From Thalassotalea crassostreae (GTDB taxonomy: Bacteria > Pseudomonadota > Gammaproteobacteria > Enterobacterales > Alteromonadaceae), in assembly GCF_001831495.1 (NCBI RefSeq), contig NZ_CP017689.1:2294001-2358000 (forward strand): DNA of 64,000 nucleotides. Reading direction: 5' to 3'. Below the pieces are notes generated by a model. It searched no databases. It saw only the letters and a program-made list of their open reading frames with translations, and was not told where the DNA came from. A program made the position numbers and the translations under genes. Below are positions 10,447-64,000 of the stretch, piece by piece (within the stretch, counting starts at the first letter, position 1; the number at the start of each line of letters is the position of its first letter).

Positions 10447-13400
10447 TTATTTATTATTAGAAAGGGTCAACGCATAACGTTGACGAATTGCGAACATTAG
10501 TGTGAATACACCTAAAATCCAGCCGAAACTACCGCTACTCGAAACATTAGAACTGTATGGCTCGATTGTTACCGTATAAGTCGAAGTCGTCGATTTATCA
10601 CTGTCACTAGCCGTCATTTCAAAGGAAACTGTCGTTGTTTCAGTAATGTTTGGGGCAACAAATTCAATGGCGTCAGATTTCGCACCATCAAATTCAACTG
10701 CGTCACCAGACACTTGCTGCCAATTGAAAGTTAAACTGTCTCCATCAAGGTCTTCAGTGACGGAATTAATCACCACTAATGCACCTTCTTTTACTGTCAT
10801 ATCAGCGCCTTGAGAAGTAGGTGCGACGTTAACGTCACGCACAATAATTTCAACTGTCTCAGATTTTTCGTTACCAGACGCATCTGTTGCAGTTACTTTA
10901 AATATCAGCAATGAATTTCTGCTGATAATCGGCGAAACAAAACTAAGGTTGCCATCATTTGATTGTGTAAATTCGGCAGTTGGACCTGATAATTGCTCCC
11001 AGGTGAATGTCACTGCTTCATTATCAAACTCAATAGCTGATGCCGATGTTGAGATTAACGACTGATTGCCAGCACTGTCTTTTTCATCAACGGTGATGCG
11101 ATTCACAGTATTGATCATAGGTGCTCGATTGCCACAGCTTTCACCTTGTTCAGCTACCGCGATAGAAAACGCAGGTTTAACGGTGTTAAAAAATTCGAAA
11201 TCATCGATAAACCAACCTAAGGTAGGGGATTGTTCATCGGTACCAATGGCAAAGCGGACTTTTACACGTTTACCATTGACTTGGCCTTCAGGAATAGTAA
11301 TGGTAACTAATTCACCTTTCGGGTTTGTCGAGCCGGTGTAAGCCATACGATAGCCTAATGGATTTTGCGCTTTTGCTTCACTCTCAGTGAACGTGCCATG
11401 TAGAACATTGGTATACGGTGAAGACATATGAGCATTTAGGCTAGTGACATCTTGCCATTCACCACCGTTAACACTTACTTCAATAACGCCGCCGTCCCAA
11501 TATTCGCGGATCCATGGCGCGTCATCTAACGATTCGGCAGCTCTGTAATCGGCAACTTCAAATTCATGGATATGGAAAAACTCAAATTTAAATTCACCGC
11601 TTTCGTTTACTTCAACTTCTGGTGACTCAAGGGCAGTAAAAGCGCGAGTTGGGCTAGCGCCGCCCCAGAACATTTGCTCTTGACGAATATCAAGTGCATC
11701 AGAACCAAATTTGCTATCGAGTAACCAAGGGAACACGGCAACACCATAAGATTCTACAGACACATTTTCCGTCACTGGCAGCCAATCAGCATCCACGGCT
11801 ATATTATTTTCAAAACGCGTGAGATTATTCTGATTTGCTAGGATATCCGTTTGCGCACTCATCCAGGCACTGCCCGCAGGCGGCATTAACACATCAACTT
11901 CCGTGTTTTCAAAGGCTAGATCAAAACGTACTGTCGACATAGGCTCAGCACTATGTAGTGTCATTTCGAAAGAAAAATCAACGTAACTACCGTATTCACC
12001 TGAAAAATCAATGTTTAATACATTATCAGGGCGAACGACTCCGTTTTGACTGATAGTGACATCGTCAATGGTATTGATGATGGCTTTAGTGCCGGTAAAT
12101 GGCTCTCGACTTAAGTCTTTCAACTTCATTGTGATTTTAACGGTCTCACCAACATCAAATGACTCGTCAAGATCACAATAGGCGCCAATGTCACCAATAA
12201 ATTGATAATCGGCGCTGATATCTTCTACAGAAAACGCAGGATAAGAGGTGGCAAAACTTTCAACGACTTGTTCAAACAAAGCATCGGTACGCTCCGGTGC
12301 AACCGCTCCTAATCCAAATCCTCGTTTCGCAAAGGCACGCACCATGATATCGAAGTCTTTCTCGTCCGTAGCTGCTGTTACCGCTAAAAGCGCATCACGA
12401 GCTTCAATATAAGTTGGCCAATAAGGCGTTACTTTTAAGCTAGCTACTAAGTATTCTTTCATGCGAGTTTCAATCATATCGAAACTCAAATCGCGACGTT
12501 CATTATGCAATGCGATATATACATCCCATAAAGCAGAAGCCCAAACTTCACCTGCCGCGTGTACTTCGTTATTTGGAATATATTGACCGCTATAATAGGT
12601 ACCCACTTCACGCGGTAGTTCCGCACTAAAAGCGATATGACCTAATGTTAATGGGTTAATATTCATGTCCGTTGTGTATGGGTAACGACGAATGCCTTCT
12701 TTAAATGAGATATTACCGATAAGATTTCGGCCGACAAATGTAGACATTGGGTTATGACCTTGGAATAACTCATTACCTAGAATATTTCGGTCAGATTCTT
12801 TCAGTTGCAACATCATCGCGATAAAGTCACTCCAACCTTCACCCATTGAAGCGCCCTGCCATTGCATTAAACCAAAACCATTGTGGATTAAACGGTTAGT
12901 TAAATAGTGCCCCCACTCGTGACTTACTATGGTGGTATCAAATGCACTGTGATTCTGATCTGTCTTAACAACAACATCGATCGTCACGCTATTACCGGCA
13001 TCAAGTGACAACAGAATATTTTCAGCATCTTCATAGGATAAAAACACACCTGGAATTGTTACATCTGAAGCATCGTCATTTGGCCCTAAGCCCATATTGA
13101 TAACGCCACCAATTTGACCTGCACTGTTTTCTTGACCTTGTTTTACATGGTTATAAACAAAGTAACCTACGGCACCAGCTTTTTGAGCATTTAAAGACTT
13201 TTGTAAGAAGCTACATTCACCACGAGAAATAACAGCAATTTTACCCGCTATCTCTTCAGCATTAATTGCTGGTTCACATAAATCTGCCGCGACCCCTTCG
13301 TCATCAAAAGCATAAGCGAGTTCATTTTCAACTATTTCGGTATCTGGATCATCGATCATTTCAAACGTAGAAGGACCAAATACTGAACGACCAAAACGAT

Positions 13401-57595: not shown

Positions 57596-58324
57596 ATGAG
57601 CAACTCAGTGAACGATACTTTATACATTACCGGCGCGGGCGTATCCTCAGAAAGCGGTATCCCAACTTTTCGTGGTGAAGATGGATTCTGGACCATTGGC
57701 AGCAATAACTATACGCCAATGGAAATGGCCACTCGAGCCATGTATGAAAGCAACCCCGCACAGTTTATATCTTGGTATTATCACCGCTTTGCCACCTATC
57801 GAAATCATGGGCCAAATGAAGTTCATCACTGGCTTAGTGACAAAAACTTGATCACTCAAAATATTGATGGCCTTGATGGAAAAGCTGGTAATAAAGATTA
57901 TATTGCGATTCATGGCCGGTTAGATCAAATGACCTTATTCCATCTCCAAGGTGATGAAGTAGAGTGCATTACCACACCATGGGATAAAGTTGATGAAACT
58001 AACTTGGTTGAATCCTTATTCGATATTTTTAAAATCAGCAACAATAAACCAACTCTCAATCACTCATTCAAGCCCTACGTATTATTATTCGATGAATTCT
58101 ATACCGAACTGTACCGCATAAGCGAAGCTCAACAGCGCATGTACAGCGCAGATAAAATGGTTTTTATCGGAACATCTTTTAGCGTCAATATCACCCAAAT
58201 GGCGTTAAGAGCGGCGATCACTAATGGTATTGAAATTGACATTGTCGATCCTGATCCTATCGAAATTTCCTACAACAAGGTCAATTATCATAAAATGAAA
58301 GCAAGCGAATATATTAAACTTTAA
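57596..58324 (+). CDS. Sir2-like NAD-dependent protein lacking the zinc site
   Basis: 242 residues. The Rossmann NAD-binding motifs of sirtuins are intact: GAGVSSESGIPTFRG (13-27), TQNIDGLDGKAG (87-98) and the catalytic-position His106 (IHGRLD). The four Cys of the zinc module that normally follow the His are absent (the protein has a single Cys, in VECITTPW). It is therefore either a divergent deacylase or an NAD-consuming Sir2 protein of the kind found in defence systems. Its stop overlaps the stop of the convergent HNH gene by 4 bp, with no terminator between. Which activity it has cannot be decided from sequence. Confidence 0.85.
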   Translation: MSNSVNDTLYITGAGVSSESGIPTFRGEDGFWTIGSNNYTPMEMATRAMYESNPAQFISWYYHRFATYRNHGPNEVHHWLSDKNLITQNIDGLDGKAGNKDYIAIHGRLDQMTLFHLQGDEVECITTPWDKVDETNLVESLFDIFKISNNKPTLNHSFKPYVLLFDEFYTELYRISEAQQRMYSADKMVFIGTSFSVNITQMALRAAITNGIEIDIVDPDPIEISYNKVNYHKMKASEYIKL

Positions 58325-58758
58325 CGCTGTTTATTAAAGCGATTGGTCAATGCTTGATGACATTGTTTACAGAGTGTTTGTAAATTGCTTATTTCAGCTT
58401 CCAAATCAGGGCGAATTGAGCGCTCGATAATGTGATGAACGTCAAGTGAAACCTTATCATCTTGTGGTGTTTTTCCACATATTTGACAGCGTTGTTCATC
58501 TCTTTCTAAAGCCTGCAATCTCAATTCACGCCAAGTTGAAGATAAAAGAAAGTCTTTCTTTAATTTTGGAGTATAAGGAACAGATTCATAGTTGCTGAAA
58601 CTTTTAGTGCCAATTCCTGGACCAGTCAAAATAGCGTGTGCTTGCCGGTCTGCTTGATGCATTTTCAAGAATTCATAAATACCTTTATAAGCGCCTTTTA
58701 ACGTTTTTAAAGCTTTAACCTTTCGTTTTTCTTTATTGATTAAGGTAACGTTGAACAT
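58321..58758 (-). CDS. HNH endonuclease, last gene of the condensin-like operon
   Basis: 145 residues. The C-terminal half is a complete HNH/treble-clef module: Cys91 and Cys94 (RCQICG), His108-His109 (DVHHIIERS), Asn125 (ISNLQTLC), Cys130, Cys133 and His134 (CKQCH). The N-terminal about 70 residues are basic and of unknown fold. It begins 6 bp after the MksF-like gene with no terminator, so it is very probably co-transcribed with the three condensin-like genes. Its 3' end overlaps that of the convergent Sir2-like gene by 4 bp. A stand-alone DNA-repair or homing role is possible, but position suggests it is the nuclease partner of the SMC complex. Confidence 0.88.
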   Translation of the reverse strand: MFNVTLINKEKRKVKALKTLKGAYKGIYEFLKMHQADRQAHAILTGPGIGTKSFSNYESVPYTPKLKKDFLLSSTWRELRLQALERDEQRCQICGKTPQDDKVSLDVHHIIERSIRPDLEAEISNLQTLCKQCHQALTNRFNKQR

Positions 58759-58764
58759 TAATGG

Positions 58765-60015
58765 CTACCTAAATCCTAGCTCAACATCTTCGATGATATA
58801 ATTACCGTTAAATATTGGGTGGGGATGGCCGAGCGTATCGATTTCAAAGAACTCTTGCTCTTCTACCGTCAATCCTTGATAGCCACTAATAACGCCGTAA
58901 ATCCACTGCTCGCTGTCAATGTCGAGCTCTTTGCTTTGATGATACTCAAGCGCCGACATACGCTCACCTGTATCCATGATTTGGCAGAAATAGTCTTCAA
59001 TCGCTAACTTAATGGTATCACTCTCTATATCGATTGAATCGATATCATTAACATCAAAGCTCTGCCCCTGTCGTTTAGTTTTGTTATCCCCTAGCGAATG
59101 CTTAACTTGCTTAATATTGCTTACAATAGTTGCAAATGTTTGCTCGTGTTCGATATTACTGACATCAATATTGGCAGGTTTGATCATGGCCGGTGCAATA
59201 TTGAATAAGCTCGGCACATTATGTCTAGCGGCGTAATCTTTAATTTGAAAATCAAGTTTTTGTTGATAGTGAAGGACAAAACCTTTGAGCAACTGTGATC
59301 GTTGTAGATATTCTCTAAACTTACCCAGTAAATCGATCAATTTTGCTTGCGCTAAAGTCAGCTCTTGGCTAATTTCACTGTGACTCTTTTGCAGTTGTAC
59401 TACCAATAAACGTCTTAATTCTCGTGAATTCCCCGCAAGTAATGCGAGTTCATCAAATTCAAACATCTCAAGTTGTTGACGCATTTCGGTAAGCTGGCTT
59501 TGTGCCAGTTCATTTTCACGGATTTTGGCGTTGATTGATGCGACATAACCAAACTCATTATGTATACGTCGCCATAAATTACGGACACTCGATTTCAAAT
59601 TATCGACTAAGCCATAAATTTGCTCGGTTAAATCTTCCATATACACTTCTGATTCAGCATAATTTTGCTGATGCAGAGCTTCTTTATAATGATTGGCAAT
59701 GGTGGTGATAGCGGCAACTTTAGAGCCGATATTTGCATCGATTTGACGATTACGTTCATCTCTTAGGCTATTTTCTAATAAACCACGGACAACACTTCTT
59801 AAACGCAAATCCTGCTCTGGCTCAGGACGCCATAATACACCAAGCTCAACAAGCTTTTCTAAAACTTTGGCATCAACATCTAACTCATTCACTCTACCTG
59901 ATAAATAAGCTTTCATGATCACATCAGAATGCTTTGCCAACGCCTTTAAAAATTTAACGCCGGCTATCTGTAATGGATGACTCATCGCTGAATGTGTTTT
60001 AGAGCTTGTGTTCAC
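58765..60015 (-). CDS. MksF/MukF/JetA-like kleisin-type subunit
   Basis: 416 residues starting at a GTG that overlaps the upstream stop (GTGA, 4 bp); an ATG 30 bp further in is an alternative. The N-terminal winged-helix-like part (LEKLVELGVLWRPEPEQDLRLR, quoted in part) is followed by long amphipathic helices (about 90-270) that would bind the SMC neck, and an acidic Asp-rich linker (DVNDIDSIDIESD) before the C-terminal winged-helix-like part. This layout and its position after an MksE-like gene fit the kleisin of MksBEF/MukBEF/Wadjet complexes. The call rests mainly on architecture and context, since kleisins diverge strongly. Confidence 0.65.
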   Translation of the reverse strand: MNTSSKTHSAMSHPLQIAGVKFLKALAKHSDVIMKAYLSGRVNELDVDAKVLEKLVELGVLWRPEPEQDLRLRSVVRGLLENSLRDERNRQIDANIGSKVAAITTIANHYKEALHQQNYAESEVYMEDLTEQIYGLVDNLKSSVRNLWRRIHNEFGYVASINAKIRENELAQSQLTEMRQQLEMFEFDELALLAGNSRELRRLLVVQLQKSHSEISQELTLAQAKLIDLLGKFREYLQRSQLLKGFVLHYQQKLDFQIKDYAARHNVPSLFNIAPAMIKPANIDVSNIEHEQTFATIVSNIKQVKHSLGDNKTKRQGQSFDVNDIDSIDIESDTIKLAIEDYFCQIMDTGERMSALEYHQSKELDIDSEQWIYGVISGYQGLTVEEQEFFEIDTLGHPHPIFNGNYIIEDVELGFR

Positions 60016-60647
60016 AGCAAGTCTCCTTGCTCAATGGCTTGCTCCGCCTGTTGCGCTAAATTAAGGTTTTCACTGTCATCGATAAATCGGATGACTTCAA
60101 ATAGGTAATCAATTTTTCCCGTTGCTAGGTATATCTGTGTTTCAGGGTTTGGCCTTAACAAATAGCCTAAATCGACCAAACGCTTAAAAATAAGTTTTAA
60201 TTGAGCATCAACCACTGAACTGGTTGAATTAAACACACTGTACTTGGCAATCTTGGCTAATTGTTCGGTAAAAGCCGGTGTGTCTTCAATAACCGATTGA
60301 ATTTCATTGAGGCGGACCACTTTACCTTCAGTCAAAGGCGCATTATCCCCCTTCGCTTCTTGCACTAACACTAGCCATTCAATCAATGGTAATAAGGCGT
60401 TGGTGATTTCTCTAAACTGCACGCTGACCGCTCTGCGCTCTGTTTCGTCAATGCTTTGGTAAGCACAAAATAATACCTGACCATCGCTTGCGGTAGCGAT
60501 ACAGCGATTCATCAAATTAAGCTGTTGATCAACGTTTCTATAGTTCTCGTCATTTTGCAAAAAGTTAAAACCAAGCTCATCGGTGGTTTTACATATAAAA
60601 CCGCCGCTGAGTAACGTTTCTAATACTTGCCCTTGTAGAGTGATCAT
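60012..60647 (-). CDS. MksE/MukE/JetB-like (kite) subunit
   Basis: 211 residues. The N-terminus (LETLLSGGFICKTTDELGFNFLQ, quoted in part) and VDQQLNLMNRCIATASDGQ-VLFCAYQ resemble the MksE pattern, in which a short winged-helix region is followed by a strand with Ala/Tyr at its end; a second winged helix (FKRLVDLGYLLRPNPE) follows. It overlaps both neighbours by 4 bp (ATGA and GTGA), which implies coupled synthesis of all three subunits. Expected to bridge kleisin and DNA in the SMC complex. Confidence 0.65.
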   Translation of the reverse strand: MITLQGQVLETLLSGGFICKTTDELGFNFLQNDENYRNVDQQLNLMNRCIATASDGQVLFCAYQSIDETERRAVSVQFREITNALLPLIEWLVLVQEAKGDNAPLTEGKVVRLNEIQSVIEDTPAFTEQLAKIAKYSVFNSTSSVVDAQLKLIFKRLVDLGYLLRPNPETQIYLATGKIDYLFEVIRFIDDSENLNLAQQAEQAIEQGDLL

Positions 60648-63600
60648 GCTGATTTCTCCGTTTCTTTACGCTGTTTAATCAATTCACTGATCCGACTGAC
60701 TTTCGGCTCTACAATACGAAGTCGTTGTTTTTCCTTCGGATTCTTTTCAATTAAATAACGATTTTGGAAGAAGTGTAAGACATCCGATTCAGGGTTTGGA
60801 AATGCCCCTAAAACATGAATATTGTTTTCTTTACAGGCGTCGAATATTTTCTTCACATTTTTATTGGCAAGCGTACCAATTTCATCAATTGGCCAATGAA
60901 TAATAACTTCTGATTTGCCCACTAGCATGCGGGTAAACGCCAGTAAGAATTTACACAAAATAAGATAAGCCATACCGTGACTCGAGCTTTCGTTTAATTG
61001 ACGGTCAGTGCGTATTACCAGCTCAGAATTACCTTCTTTAAGGTGCAGCTCTATATCAAGCAATTGACTAATTCCACCGCTCATTGTTGCCCGACCTAGT
61101 ACATCCAATACCTCGCGCATGGTCTGCATATATTCATCGTCAGGTAATTCGGCACTCTCATCGCTTGCCCATTGGCTATATAACTTATTGAAAGATAATA
61201 ATTTAGGCCAGAAATCAAACTCACTAATTTTAGAGCGTATTTTAACCGACGACTCCGACACGCCATCTAAAAACAGTTCGTGTTCGACTTCTTTACTGAT
61301 GCGTCTTGATTGCAAGGCAATGCGCTTATCGATATCAGCTAATAGGTTGTAATATTGATTGAGGTTATTACCAAATGTTAAGCCATTATTGCGTACCCCG
61401 GCCAAATGTTGTGGCACTAAAATAGTTAATAACGTCTCTAATTCTGTCACCATTTTGCGCGAATCTAATACCGTTAATCCTTGGGCATTTTCAACTAAAC
61501 AATCTTGTCGCGCTCGCTCCCAGGTTTCAGTAAGACTTAAACCCGACTTTTGCCCGATGGCATTATCAAAATAGCTAACAAATTCTTCGATATCTTTGCT
61601 GGCTTTGCGTTGATTATCGATGAGCTCTCGTGCTTCAACTAAGCGCGCGGCTGCCGTAGAGTTTTCTGTTACAACGATTGCTTTTGGCAATATCATGGTC
61701 GCTATTTGTTGCTTAATCGTGGTAATGCCCGATGATAACTCTCGTTGTTCATTTAAAGCTTTTTGCAACTGTTCGAGCTGCTTTTGCAATTGCTGTTGCT
61801 GCTGCTGATAATTGGTTAACAGCTCAGCCTGTAAACGTTCCGCTTTCGACTTGCTTTCCTTCGCCGCCGATAATTGTGTTAGATAACCTGCTTTTTGCTT
61901 GGTAAAGACTAATTCATACCATGACGCGTATTCGCTGACCTTATCTCGATATTTATTGGTTACCGCAATATTGTCCTGTAACTCGCTAATGCTCTGCTTC
62001 AATTCACTTATTTGTTTAACATCAACATCGCGATTGTTTAGTTCATCTTGATACCATTTTTTACAGGCTTTTAAGTTTTGCTTATATTGGCTCTCAGCGT
62101 CAGCTACTTGTAATTTAATCGAGCTAACCTTTTGTTCAACACCGCCTATTAATTGTTGCCAATGAAGTTCGTGTTCCATCTTTTCATCATGGCACTGCTC
62201 TTGGTGCTCTTCGATGGCATTGGCTTTATTGCTAATAAGCTTTTCAGTTCTATTTTCAACACCTTTTAAACTGTCTAAACGCTGCTGTTTTCGCTCTTGT
62301 AGCGCTTGTTTGTGTTGTTCTTTTAGCTGATTACGCTCATCTTGGATGCGTTTTCTGGTATCTTGTTTAAACTGACACTGTGACTGCAATTGAGTACACT
62401 TTTGCTCGGTTTGCTTAACCGCCGCATTAAGTGTTGCGAGCCCCTGCTCTAAATCAAGATGAATTGCTTGCGCACTTTTAAGCTCTTCTTCAATGTTTAA
62501 TAACTGCTCTTTGAGTTGCTCTTCAGTTTGTACAAGCTCTGACTCATTAATCACATCAGTATCAAGTAATACTCCAAAGATACTATTACTTTCTTTATCA
62601 TCTAAAGCAGGGGATAAATCAGTGCGGGCGAGTAAATCAGGGCTTATAACCTTGCCTAAACTCTGTTCCCAACCTGATAAATTATTACGAAGAAAATCCA
62701 ACAATGAATTATTTTCAGGGTCTAACCAAGATTGCACTTCTGCTAAACGTTGGTTATCGGCTTTAATCTTCGCTCGTGACTTATTAAGCTTTTCATTAGC
62801 CGCAATTTGCTGATATTTCTCGCTCTGCAATTGCTCATTGAGCTTTGCAAATTCATTGCGAGTATGATCTTCATCACTTTGCGCATGTTCAAGGTTGTTT
62901 TCTTGAAGCGCCATCTGTTGTTGTTCTTCAGCGCTTGGTCCGCTTAATTCAATTTCAGTTTTTAAGGTTTGTAACTTCAGCTTGTTATCATTAATTTGTC
63001 GGTCGAAATCACTATTAATCGCGGCTAAACGAGCATCTTGGCTGTCTTTTAATTCTGCTAATGCTTGTCGCTCTTGTTTTTGTTGAACATCTAATTGTTC
63101 TTGGCTTTGGTCTTTTTGCAGATTTAACTGTGCCAATTGCTTTGAATGTTTTTTCTCAATATCCGCTTCACGTTTATGGAAAGACGCTTCGATATCTTGA
63201 TGCTCTTGGGTAAGCAAGGCATGTTGCTGGCTATTCGATTCTAATTGTACTTTCCAATTATCAATTTTATCTAAATTAGCCTGATGAGTTTCTATGTCTA
63301 AGTCTTGCCACTCGTTGAATTTATCTTCGATTTGATCCAAGTGCTGCTCGGCACTTTTTACATCGGCATTGGCCATCGATAAGGTACGGTTCTGTTCATC
63401 GCGTTGTTGTTCAAAATTACTTTTTACCTCAGATAACTGCTGTTTATACGCAGAATTGTCTTGTTCGGCTTTAACGATTGAATCACTTAACAACGATAAA
63501 TCTGCGCTTAACTGAGACTTAAGCTGACTTAAACGTTGCTCCGTATGCTGCAACGACGCATTAACCTTTTCTAACGAACGATAGCTTGGCATTAACGACT

Positions 63601-64000
63601 GAAACTCTTGAATTAACTGACACTCTTTAATCCAATCATCGACTTGCGCTTTAGATATTTTATTACTCGGCGTTTCAACACCGTCTTCTTCTAAAATGGC
63701 GGCGATCATTGCTTTGATCGTTTCCATCTTGCCCTCTTTTGAGTGCACCGCTTTGATTAGTTTTTCGATATGACGCAAACGAGCATCGCTTTCACATAAA
63801 CTAAAGCTACGAGCTGCTGCTAGCAAATCACGTTTATGGGTACTCAGCGCTAAAACTGCTCTATCGTTTTGTATAACGCTACGATACTCTTTGTTGTTTA
63901 AGGCTCTTGAAACCATGACATTTTGCTGGCGCATATTTTTGCTAATTTCGCCTTTAGTTAAAGAGCGCTGAGACGCTGCATCATCGGTTGATGCCATATC
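60644..64000 (-). CDS. SMC/MksB/JetC-like ATPase (N-terminus outside window)
   Basis: At least 1117 residues; the frame stays open past the apparent ATG at 63997 to the window edge, and no Walker A motif is present in the visible part, so the true N-terminus lies beyond. Very long coiled coils (about 130-390 and 470-790, rich in Gln, Glu and Lys) flank a central non-coil segment (LDFLRNNLSGWEQSLGKVIS, hinge-like). The C-terminal head has a signature-like NESSSHGMAYLILCKFLLAF and a Walker B EVIIHWPIDEIGTL. The SSxGxxYLILC wording is that of MksB-type condensins rather than canonical SMC. First visible gene of an operon with MksE-like, MksF-like and HNH genes. Confidence 0.8.
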   Translation of the reverse strand, partial: DMASTDDAASQRSLTKGEISKNMRQQNVMVSRALNNKEYRSVIQNDRAVLALSTHKRDLLAAARSFSLCESDARLRHIEKLIKAVHSKEGKMETIKAMIAAILEEDGVETPSNKISKAQVDDWIKECQLIQEFQSLMPSYRSLEKVNASLQHTEQRLSQLKSQLSADLSLLSDSIVKAEQDNSAYKQQLSEVKSNFEQQRDEQNRTLSMANADVKSAEQHLDQIEDKFNEWQDLDIETHQANLDKIDNWKVQLESNSQQHALLTQEHQDIEASFHKREADIEKKHSKQLAQLNLQKDQSQEQLDVQQKQERQALAELKDSQDARLAAINSDFDRQINDNKLKLQTLKTEIELSGPSAEEQQQMALQENNLEHAQSDEDHTRNEFAKLNEQLQSEKYQQIAANEKLNKSRAKIKADNQRLAEVQSWLDPENNSLLDFLRNNLSGWEQSLGKVISPDLLARTDLSPALDDKESNSIFGVLLDTDVINESELVQTEEQLKEQLLNIEEELKSAQAIHLDLEQGLATLNAAVKQTEQKCTQLQSQCQFKQDTRKRIQDERNQLKEQHKQALQERKQQRLDSLKGVENRTEKLISNKANAIEEHQEQCHDEKMEHELHWQQLIGGVEQKVSSIKLQVADAESQYKQNLKACKKWYQDELNNRDVDVKQISELKQSISELQDNIAVTNKYRDKVSEYASWYELVFTKQKAGYLTQLSAAKESKSKAERLQAELLTNYQQQQQQLQKQLEQLQKALNEQRELSSGITTIKQQIATMILPKAIVVTENSTAAARLVEARELIDNQRKASKDIEEFVSYFDNAIGQKSGLSLTETWERARQDCLVENAQGLTVLDSRKMVTELETLLTILVPQHLAGVRNNGLTFGNNLNQYYNLLADIDKRIALQSRRISKEVEHELFLDGVSESSVKIRSKISEFDFWPKLLSFNKLYSQWASDESAELPDDEYMQTMREVLDVLGRATMSGGISQLLDIELHLKEGNSELVIRTDRQLNESSSHGMAYLILCKFLLAFTRMLVGKSEVIIHWPIDEIGTLANKNVKKIFDACKENNIHVLGAFPNPESDVLHFFQNRYLIEKNPKEKQRLRIVEPKVSRISELIKQRKETEKSA

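Follow-up and report, generated by a model that had tools for sequence, protein, structure and literature searches.

Whether a condensin of the Wadjet or Mks kind can work with a nuclease other than a Toprim protein is the question raised by the last genes of the window, that is, the whole stretch of 64,000 nucleotides of Thalassotalea crassostreae DNA analyzed here. As described in the accessible portions of PMC10123090 and PMC10586767, SMC-based plasmid defense by Wadjet and MksBEFG works through a Toprim nuclease, and its activation by the motor is an open matter. An earlier note on this DNA had recognized genes for an SMC-type ATPase, a kite and a kleisin followed by an unrelated HNH gene, and suggested a Wadjet-like antiplasmid system with a different effector. 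The features concerned are the following:

57596..58324, plus strand: Sir2/CobB-like gene, a convergent neighbor whose 3' end shares 4 bp with that of the HNH ORF
58321..58758, minus strand: HNH nuclease, 145 aa, separated from the kleisin by a 6-bp gap; proposed exchangeable nuclease subunit
58339..58488, minus strand: HNH catalytic domain, residues 91-140, from Pfam HNH and the active-site alignment
58561..58758, minus strand: N-terminal domain of the HNH protein, residues ~1-66; proposed docking module
58765..60015, minus strand: kleisin (MukF/JetA-like), 416 aa, 4-bp overlap with the kite ORF
60012..60647, minus strand: kite subunit (MksE/JetB-like), 211 aa, 4-bp overlap with the SMC ORF
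60644..64000, minus strand: SMC-type ATPase (Pfam DUF3584), open at the window end

The operon and its gene products

The ORF coordinates confirmed both the four-gene minus-strand operon, with the overlaps and the gap first described, and the convergent Sir2-like ORF. Followed past position 64,000, the SMC gene was found to end 342 bp beyond the window and to code for 1232 aa (L002:4645-8343), with an intact Walker A motif (GTNASGKTT) near the start of the full ORF, in the part of the host genome that lies outside the window. Beyond it there are a divergent HAD-like gene, a POT-like transporter, an exonuclease and SbcCD-like genes (labels assigned by eye). No jetD or mksG was found among these genes, and profile searches of the host genome (G000) found neither JetD_C nor DUF7281.

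The identities proposed for the three core subunits held, each on a different kind of evidence. The SMC protein matches Pfam DUF3584 with an E-value of 1.2e-235, and its Walker A, SSHG signature and Walker B align across 32 SMC sequences, of which two distant ones vary around the motifs. The identity of the kite is carried by the family of its homologues, 15 of 16 of which match Pfam MksE (best E 6.5e-9) and 9 of 16 DUF4194; the kite of the window itself matches MksE weakly and below the cut-off (E 0.05), and PADLOC JetB only weakly (E 0.015). Family searches gave no convincing match for the kleisin, which has 416 aa when read from a GTG, most homologues having ~406 aa and starting near M11. 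Its structure model (pLDDT 74, pTM 0.39) points with medium confidence to a MukF/JetA-like protein: the top ten Foldseek matches are all Wadjet-II JetABC or MukBEF/MukF chains, at E-values of 5e-3 to 5e-2, none below 0.001, and with low TM-scores. Many unrelated helix bundles reach a similar Z against the long helices, and the N-terminal part is covered mainly by MukF/JetA rows. Matches of the kleisin to PADLOC DpdH (E 6.5e-4) and NCBIfam UhpB (E 0.004) were rejected, as they lie below cut-off or in a helical stretch. A PDB sequence search with the kleisin, the kite and the SMC protein returned no convincing match. The part of the SMC protein inside the window, which lacks the N-terminal 114 residues, matched no PADLOC Jet model. 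Searches with Jet and Mks profiles bore out MksE in the kite homologues and yielded no convincing PADLOC match to Wadjet.

The signature motif reads SSHG in 30 of the 32 aligned SMC sequences and SSTG in two distant ones; its usual form in SMC proteins is SGG.

Among 59 relatives, the kleisin is present in 34, including all 15 Thalassotalea genomes, with the core occurring once per genome. The kite adjoins the kleisin in 33 of the 34 mapped loci, the exception (L060) being cut by a contig end. This recurrence argues that the operon is more than a chance arrangement. MukF, searched for by its KicB domain, was found neither in G000 nor in the 15 Thalassotalea genomes, and in none of the 34 kleisin genomes; the nine relatives that have MukF are all without this kleisin.

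The gene behind the kleisin in Thalassotalea

The slot after the kleisin is occupied in the 15 Thalassotalea genomes by an HNH gene in six (one of them with a late frameshift), by an HNH remnant in one, by a DUF7281 gene in six and by neither in two. A full-length HNH gene and a DUF7281 gene never occur together in these 15 genomes, and JetD_C was found in none of them. The alternative protein has 284-297 aa and matches Pfam DUF7281 in all ten cases scanned from the genus and the order. Its E and DxDP residues are invariant, and some of the scanned proteins show weak similarity to the Toprim domain of Spo11/Topo VI and to JetD. Since relatives often hold this JetD-like Toprim protein at the same place, the HNH protein stands where the usual nuclease would be, as the earlier note had supposed from the window alone.

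The HNH and DUF7281 states interleave on the tree of kite, kleisin and SMC. Two sister genomes (support 100, several deeper nodes reaching only 59-79) differ in state, G007 having HNH and G011 DUF7281. The kleisin stop codon ends at position 11224 in either genome, and up to that base their DNA is 90.2% identical. Past the unlike nuclease genes, the alignment picks up again (86.7%) with the following gene, from 11787 and 12198, respectively. The replacement of one nuclease gene by the other is thus bounded on both sides. No core residues tracking the nuclease type were found.

Co-occurrence and mutual exclusion in the order

We surveyed 394 genomes of the order, with full-length HNH delimited by the empty score range from 51 to 99 bits, and found the kleisin in 120, DUF7281 in 68 and full-length HNH in 19. 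All 19 HNH genomes have the kleisin; counted by genus, the co-occurrence is 6/6 against 28/115 (P 1.3e-4). For DUF7281 the figure is 65 of 68, three genomes having DUF7281-type matches without the kleisin, and the gene lies directly 3' of the kleisin in 61 of the 68, at -28 to +227 bp.

The two nucleases exclude each other, being found together in one of the 120 kleisin genomes against ~10 expected (Fisher P 1.7e-6). In that genome, G309, the main kleisin is bare, and DUF7281 is part of another, divergent system. With stratification by genus (Thalassotalea, Shewanella, g29 and g36), the exclusion has a P of 1.6e-7 with G309 taken per system and 1.7e-6 with G309 counted as having both, values that ignore relatedness within genera. 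The second condensin of G309 (L144:3112-9571; main copy in L145) lies beside frames that by eye look like an IS3-like transposase.

The HNH gene adjoins the condensin in three of the 19 order genomes (G000, G097 and G319). The other 16 are non-adjacent in the assemblies, two of them lying within ~1 kb of a contig end. Linkage may be at either end. HNH stands 3' of the kleisin in Thalassotalea mangrovi and at the 3' end in G097 as well, and 5' of the SMC gene on the same strand in Shewanella sp. AS1 (G319; 253 bp) and Alteromonas oceanisediminis (21 bp). Among 80 named loci, 79 of them with a kleisin frame, the stretch examined holds HNH in four (two of which, G007 and G319, had been counted already), DUF7281 in 24 and neither in 51. 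In G097, the frames neighboring the HNH-linked condensin (L131:973-4764) resemble, by eye, Tn7-type transposition genes.

Neither nuclease was detected by profile in 37 of the 120 kleisin genomes, of which G050 has a JetD_C protein elsewhere. The stretch behind the kleisin, examined in 20 of the 37, has no HNH or DUF7281 match in 19; G120 has a weak DUF7281-like neighbor (E 7.5e-4), so that 37 is an upper bound. A wider search for HNH in 40 genomes (the 37 plus G004, G006 and G009) gave some match in ten, none of them intact and full length. In a survey of the class, six of 369 genomes match HNH at 1e-10, and the match is full length only in G000.

The HNH protein and its N-terminal domain

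The 145-aa protein matches Pfam HNH with an E-value of 9.7e-13 and carries a His/Asn active site with two CxxC zinc pairs. C91, C94 and H109 are conserved in 26 of 26 sequences, and N125, C130 and C133 in 25 of 26, G014 being truncated there. Three pairs of non-adjacent HNH genes (Shewanella and g29) gave dN/dS values of ~0.03-0.08, with dS above 1 in each. Taken together, the invariant residues and the low ratios indicate that the protein is under selection as an enzyme. Its structure model (pLDDT 93.6) shows a beta-beta-alpha-beta-beta unit followed by the HNH domain, and its best Foldseek matches are other HNH nucleases. PADLOC showed a similarity of the HNH domain to those of PtuB and ZorE as well (E ~5e-7).

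We propose that the N-terminal domain, of ~65 residues, may be a docking module on the complex. A profile built from HNH proteins only, without the protein in question, and run on 2809 frames detected this domain (E 2.8e-12) in a 218-aa protein of G124 (L262:1486-2142), a genome that has the kleisin but, by profile, neither HNH nor DUF7281. The remainder of the protein resembles plasmid proteins annotated as GIY-YIG (best ten of 386 records, top identity 38-39%), its match to Pfam GIY-YIG being below threshold (E 0.018). The fusion of the N-terminal domain to a GIY-YIG-like part was found in this one genome, and its gene does not adjoin the condensin.

Relatives on phages and plasmids

Phage and plasmid HNH genes have the catalytic domain in common with this protein; none of the 124 matched phage records covers 80% of its length. 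Of 66 matching plasmid records, 16 cover at least 80%; two of three inspected are full-length relatives adjoining qnrA, outside the genomes shown to have the condensin. Plasmids of Klebsiella pneumoniae and Shewanella xiamenensis carry such a relative next to qnrA, and in G309 the HNH gene stands ~0.5 kb away from one encoding a protein 98% identical to the qnr protein of L273 (coordinates of these HNH genes: L269:4983-5417, L273:4983-5417, L137:4986-5420). The plasmid HNH gene therefore probably came along with qnrA out of a Shewanella chromosome.

Related loci on one Azospira and one Vibrio plasmid carry SMC-sized, kleisin and DUF7281 genes, with a kite by profile only in the Vibrio locus. 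Plasmid-borne DUF7281 cassettes would suit competition between replicons.

Comparison with known systems

The operon shares with Wadjet (JetABCD) the grouping of SMC, kite and kleisin along with a nuclease encoded as a subunit of its own; JetA/MukF chains come closest to the kleisin model, and the commonest nuclease of the lineage is a weakly JetD-like Toprim protein. It differs from Wadjet in the order SMC-kite-kleisin-nuclease, the DUF3584 type of SMC, the HNH in place of Toprim and a core conserved across the genus, and PADLOC gave no convincing Jet match here. With MksBEFG of C. glutamicum and Pseudomonas it has in common a MukBEF-like condensin with an accessory nuclease and a kite family that matches Pfam MksE. 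In the accessible portion of PMC10123090 the gene order is mksFEBG, with MksG a Toprim protein; here the order is SMC-kite-kleisin-HNH and not F-E-B-G. The resemblance to MukBEF lies in the kleisin fold, as predicted by the model, and in the three-gene core, but MukF is absent from all 34 kleisin genomes among the relatives. MukBEF is not known to have a nuclease gene. Lamassu, as far as the accessible part of PMC10586767 describes it, combines an SMC-like ATPase with varied effectors, HNH among them. The Lamassu effector domain, however, is part of LmuA. PADLOC LmuB did not match the part of the SMC protein inside the window (without its N-terminal 114 residues), and it weakly matches a distant relative, L065 (E 1.1e-5). 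A Jet or Mks system bearing an HNH nuclease was not found in the literature searched, in which coverage of subscription papers and bioRxiv is thin.

The Wadjet-like reading of the earlier note thus stands insofar as HNH replaces the usual nuclease, but gene order, DUF3584 and the PADLOC results show that this is not a canonical Jet or Mks operon. It also needs amending: the core is genus-wide and often has no nuclease gene linked to it, and HNH is mostly encoded away from the operon.

A probable exchangeable nuclease partner and the alternatives

We consider it likely that the operon represents a Mks/Wadjet-like condensin of its own lineage, made up of a DUF3584 SMC, a kite and a kleisin, with an exchangeable nuclease partner. 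In the order, the commonest partner is the JetD/MksG-like Toprim protein DUF7281. The best reading of our data is that HNH replaces it here, in six of the 15 Thalassotalea and in members of several other genera, either in the operon or in trans. Replacement, co-occurrence and exclusion together suggest that the condensin delivers DNA to the HNH protein. In such a mechanism, the ATP-driven SMC-kite-kleisin motor would bind and extrude DNA; on meeting foreign DNA, of which small circular plasmids are the likeliest kind if Wadjet is a guide, it would bring the docked nuclease onto it and license cutting. Gene content, active-site conservation, the bounded replacement, the co-occurrence and the mutual exclusion are what the sequences themselves show; physical docking of the nuclease and its activation by the motor are steps that we infer, and plasmid DNA is the probable target by analogy with Wadjet and MksBEFG, as these are presented in the accessible portions of PMC10586767 and PMC10123090.

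The core might instead be a chromosome-organizing condensin, HNH and DUF7281 being helpers in DNA repair or decatenation rather than antiplasmid effectors. Its presence once in each of the 15 Thalassotalea genomes and the absence of MukF wherever the kleisin occurs among the 59 relatives fit this view, and the 37 order genomes without either nuclease suggest that the core may have another job. Nevertheless, all 15 Thalassotalea also have Smc-ScpAB (judged by ScpB) and hence a housekeeping condensin, while the exchange, decay and loss of the nuclease, like the related DUF7281 cassettes on plasmids, look like the behavior of an accessory effector. We regard the helper role as unlikely.

It is quite improbable, in our judgment, that the HNH protein is a stand-alone restriction-like nuclease that shares a niche with the complex but acts outside it, the exclusion then reflecting redundancy between two plasmid defenses. 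Such a nuclease would account for the non-adjacent genes, the lack of co-variation in the core and the resemblance to the PtuB and ZorE domains, but not for the bounded replacement in the operon slot, the co-occurrence with the kleisin in 19 of 19 genomes or the recurrence of the N-terminal domain in a kleisin genome, attached to another type of nuclease. There is very little probability that HNH is a selfish element, of the homing type for instance, or a chance insertion 3' of the kleisin, functionally unlinked to the condensin. Although the catalytic domain is shared with phage and plasmid genes and the family members sampled mostly lie away from the condensin, none of the matched phage records reaches 80% coverage of the protein, HNH occurs in the order sample only where the kleisin does and excludes DUF7281, and it is found at both operon ends in different genera.

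Chances seem about even that the small N-terminal domain would serve for docking and let a DNA-looping condensin use an HNH or a GIY-YIG nuclease, in cis or in trans and in alternation with the Toprim subunit, as a plug-in effector system. If this is true, two or three unrelated nucleases are served by a single motor, and activation would be independent of the Toprim fold, a point for which the sister species offer a matched comparison. It would also mean that small, separately encoded nuclease genes are condensin partners missed by gene-neighborhood searches.

The Sir2-like neighbor

The protein of the convergent gene matches Pfam SIR2 (E 3.7e-23) and falls below the NCBIfam deacylase cut-offs. 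It had been put forward as a possible second effector, a role that we rejected: the gene is near the operon whichever of HNH and DUF7281 the genome has, and also where both are missing, and we judge that it is not part of the system. In five Thalassotalea loci, the Sir2-like gene lies near the same ferritin/MiaE-like gene (identified by eye).
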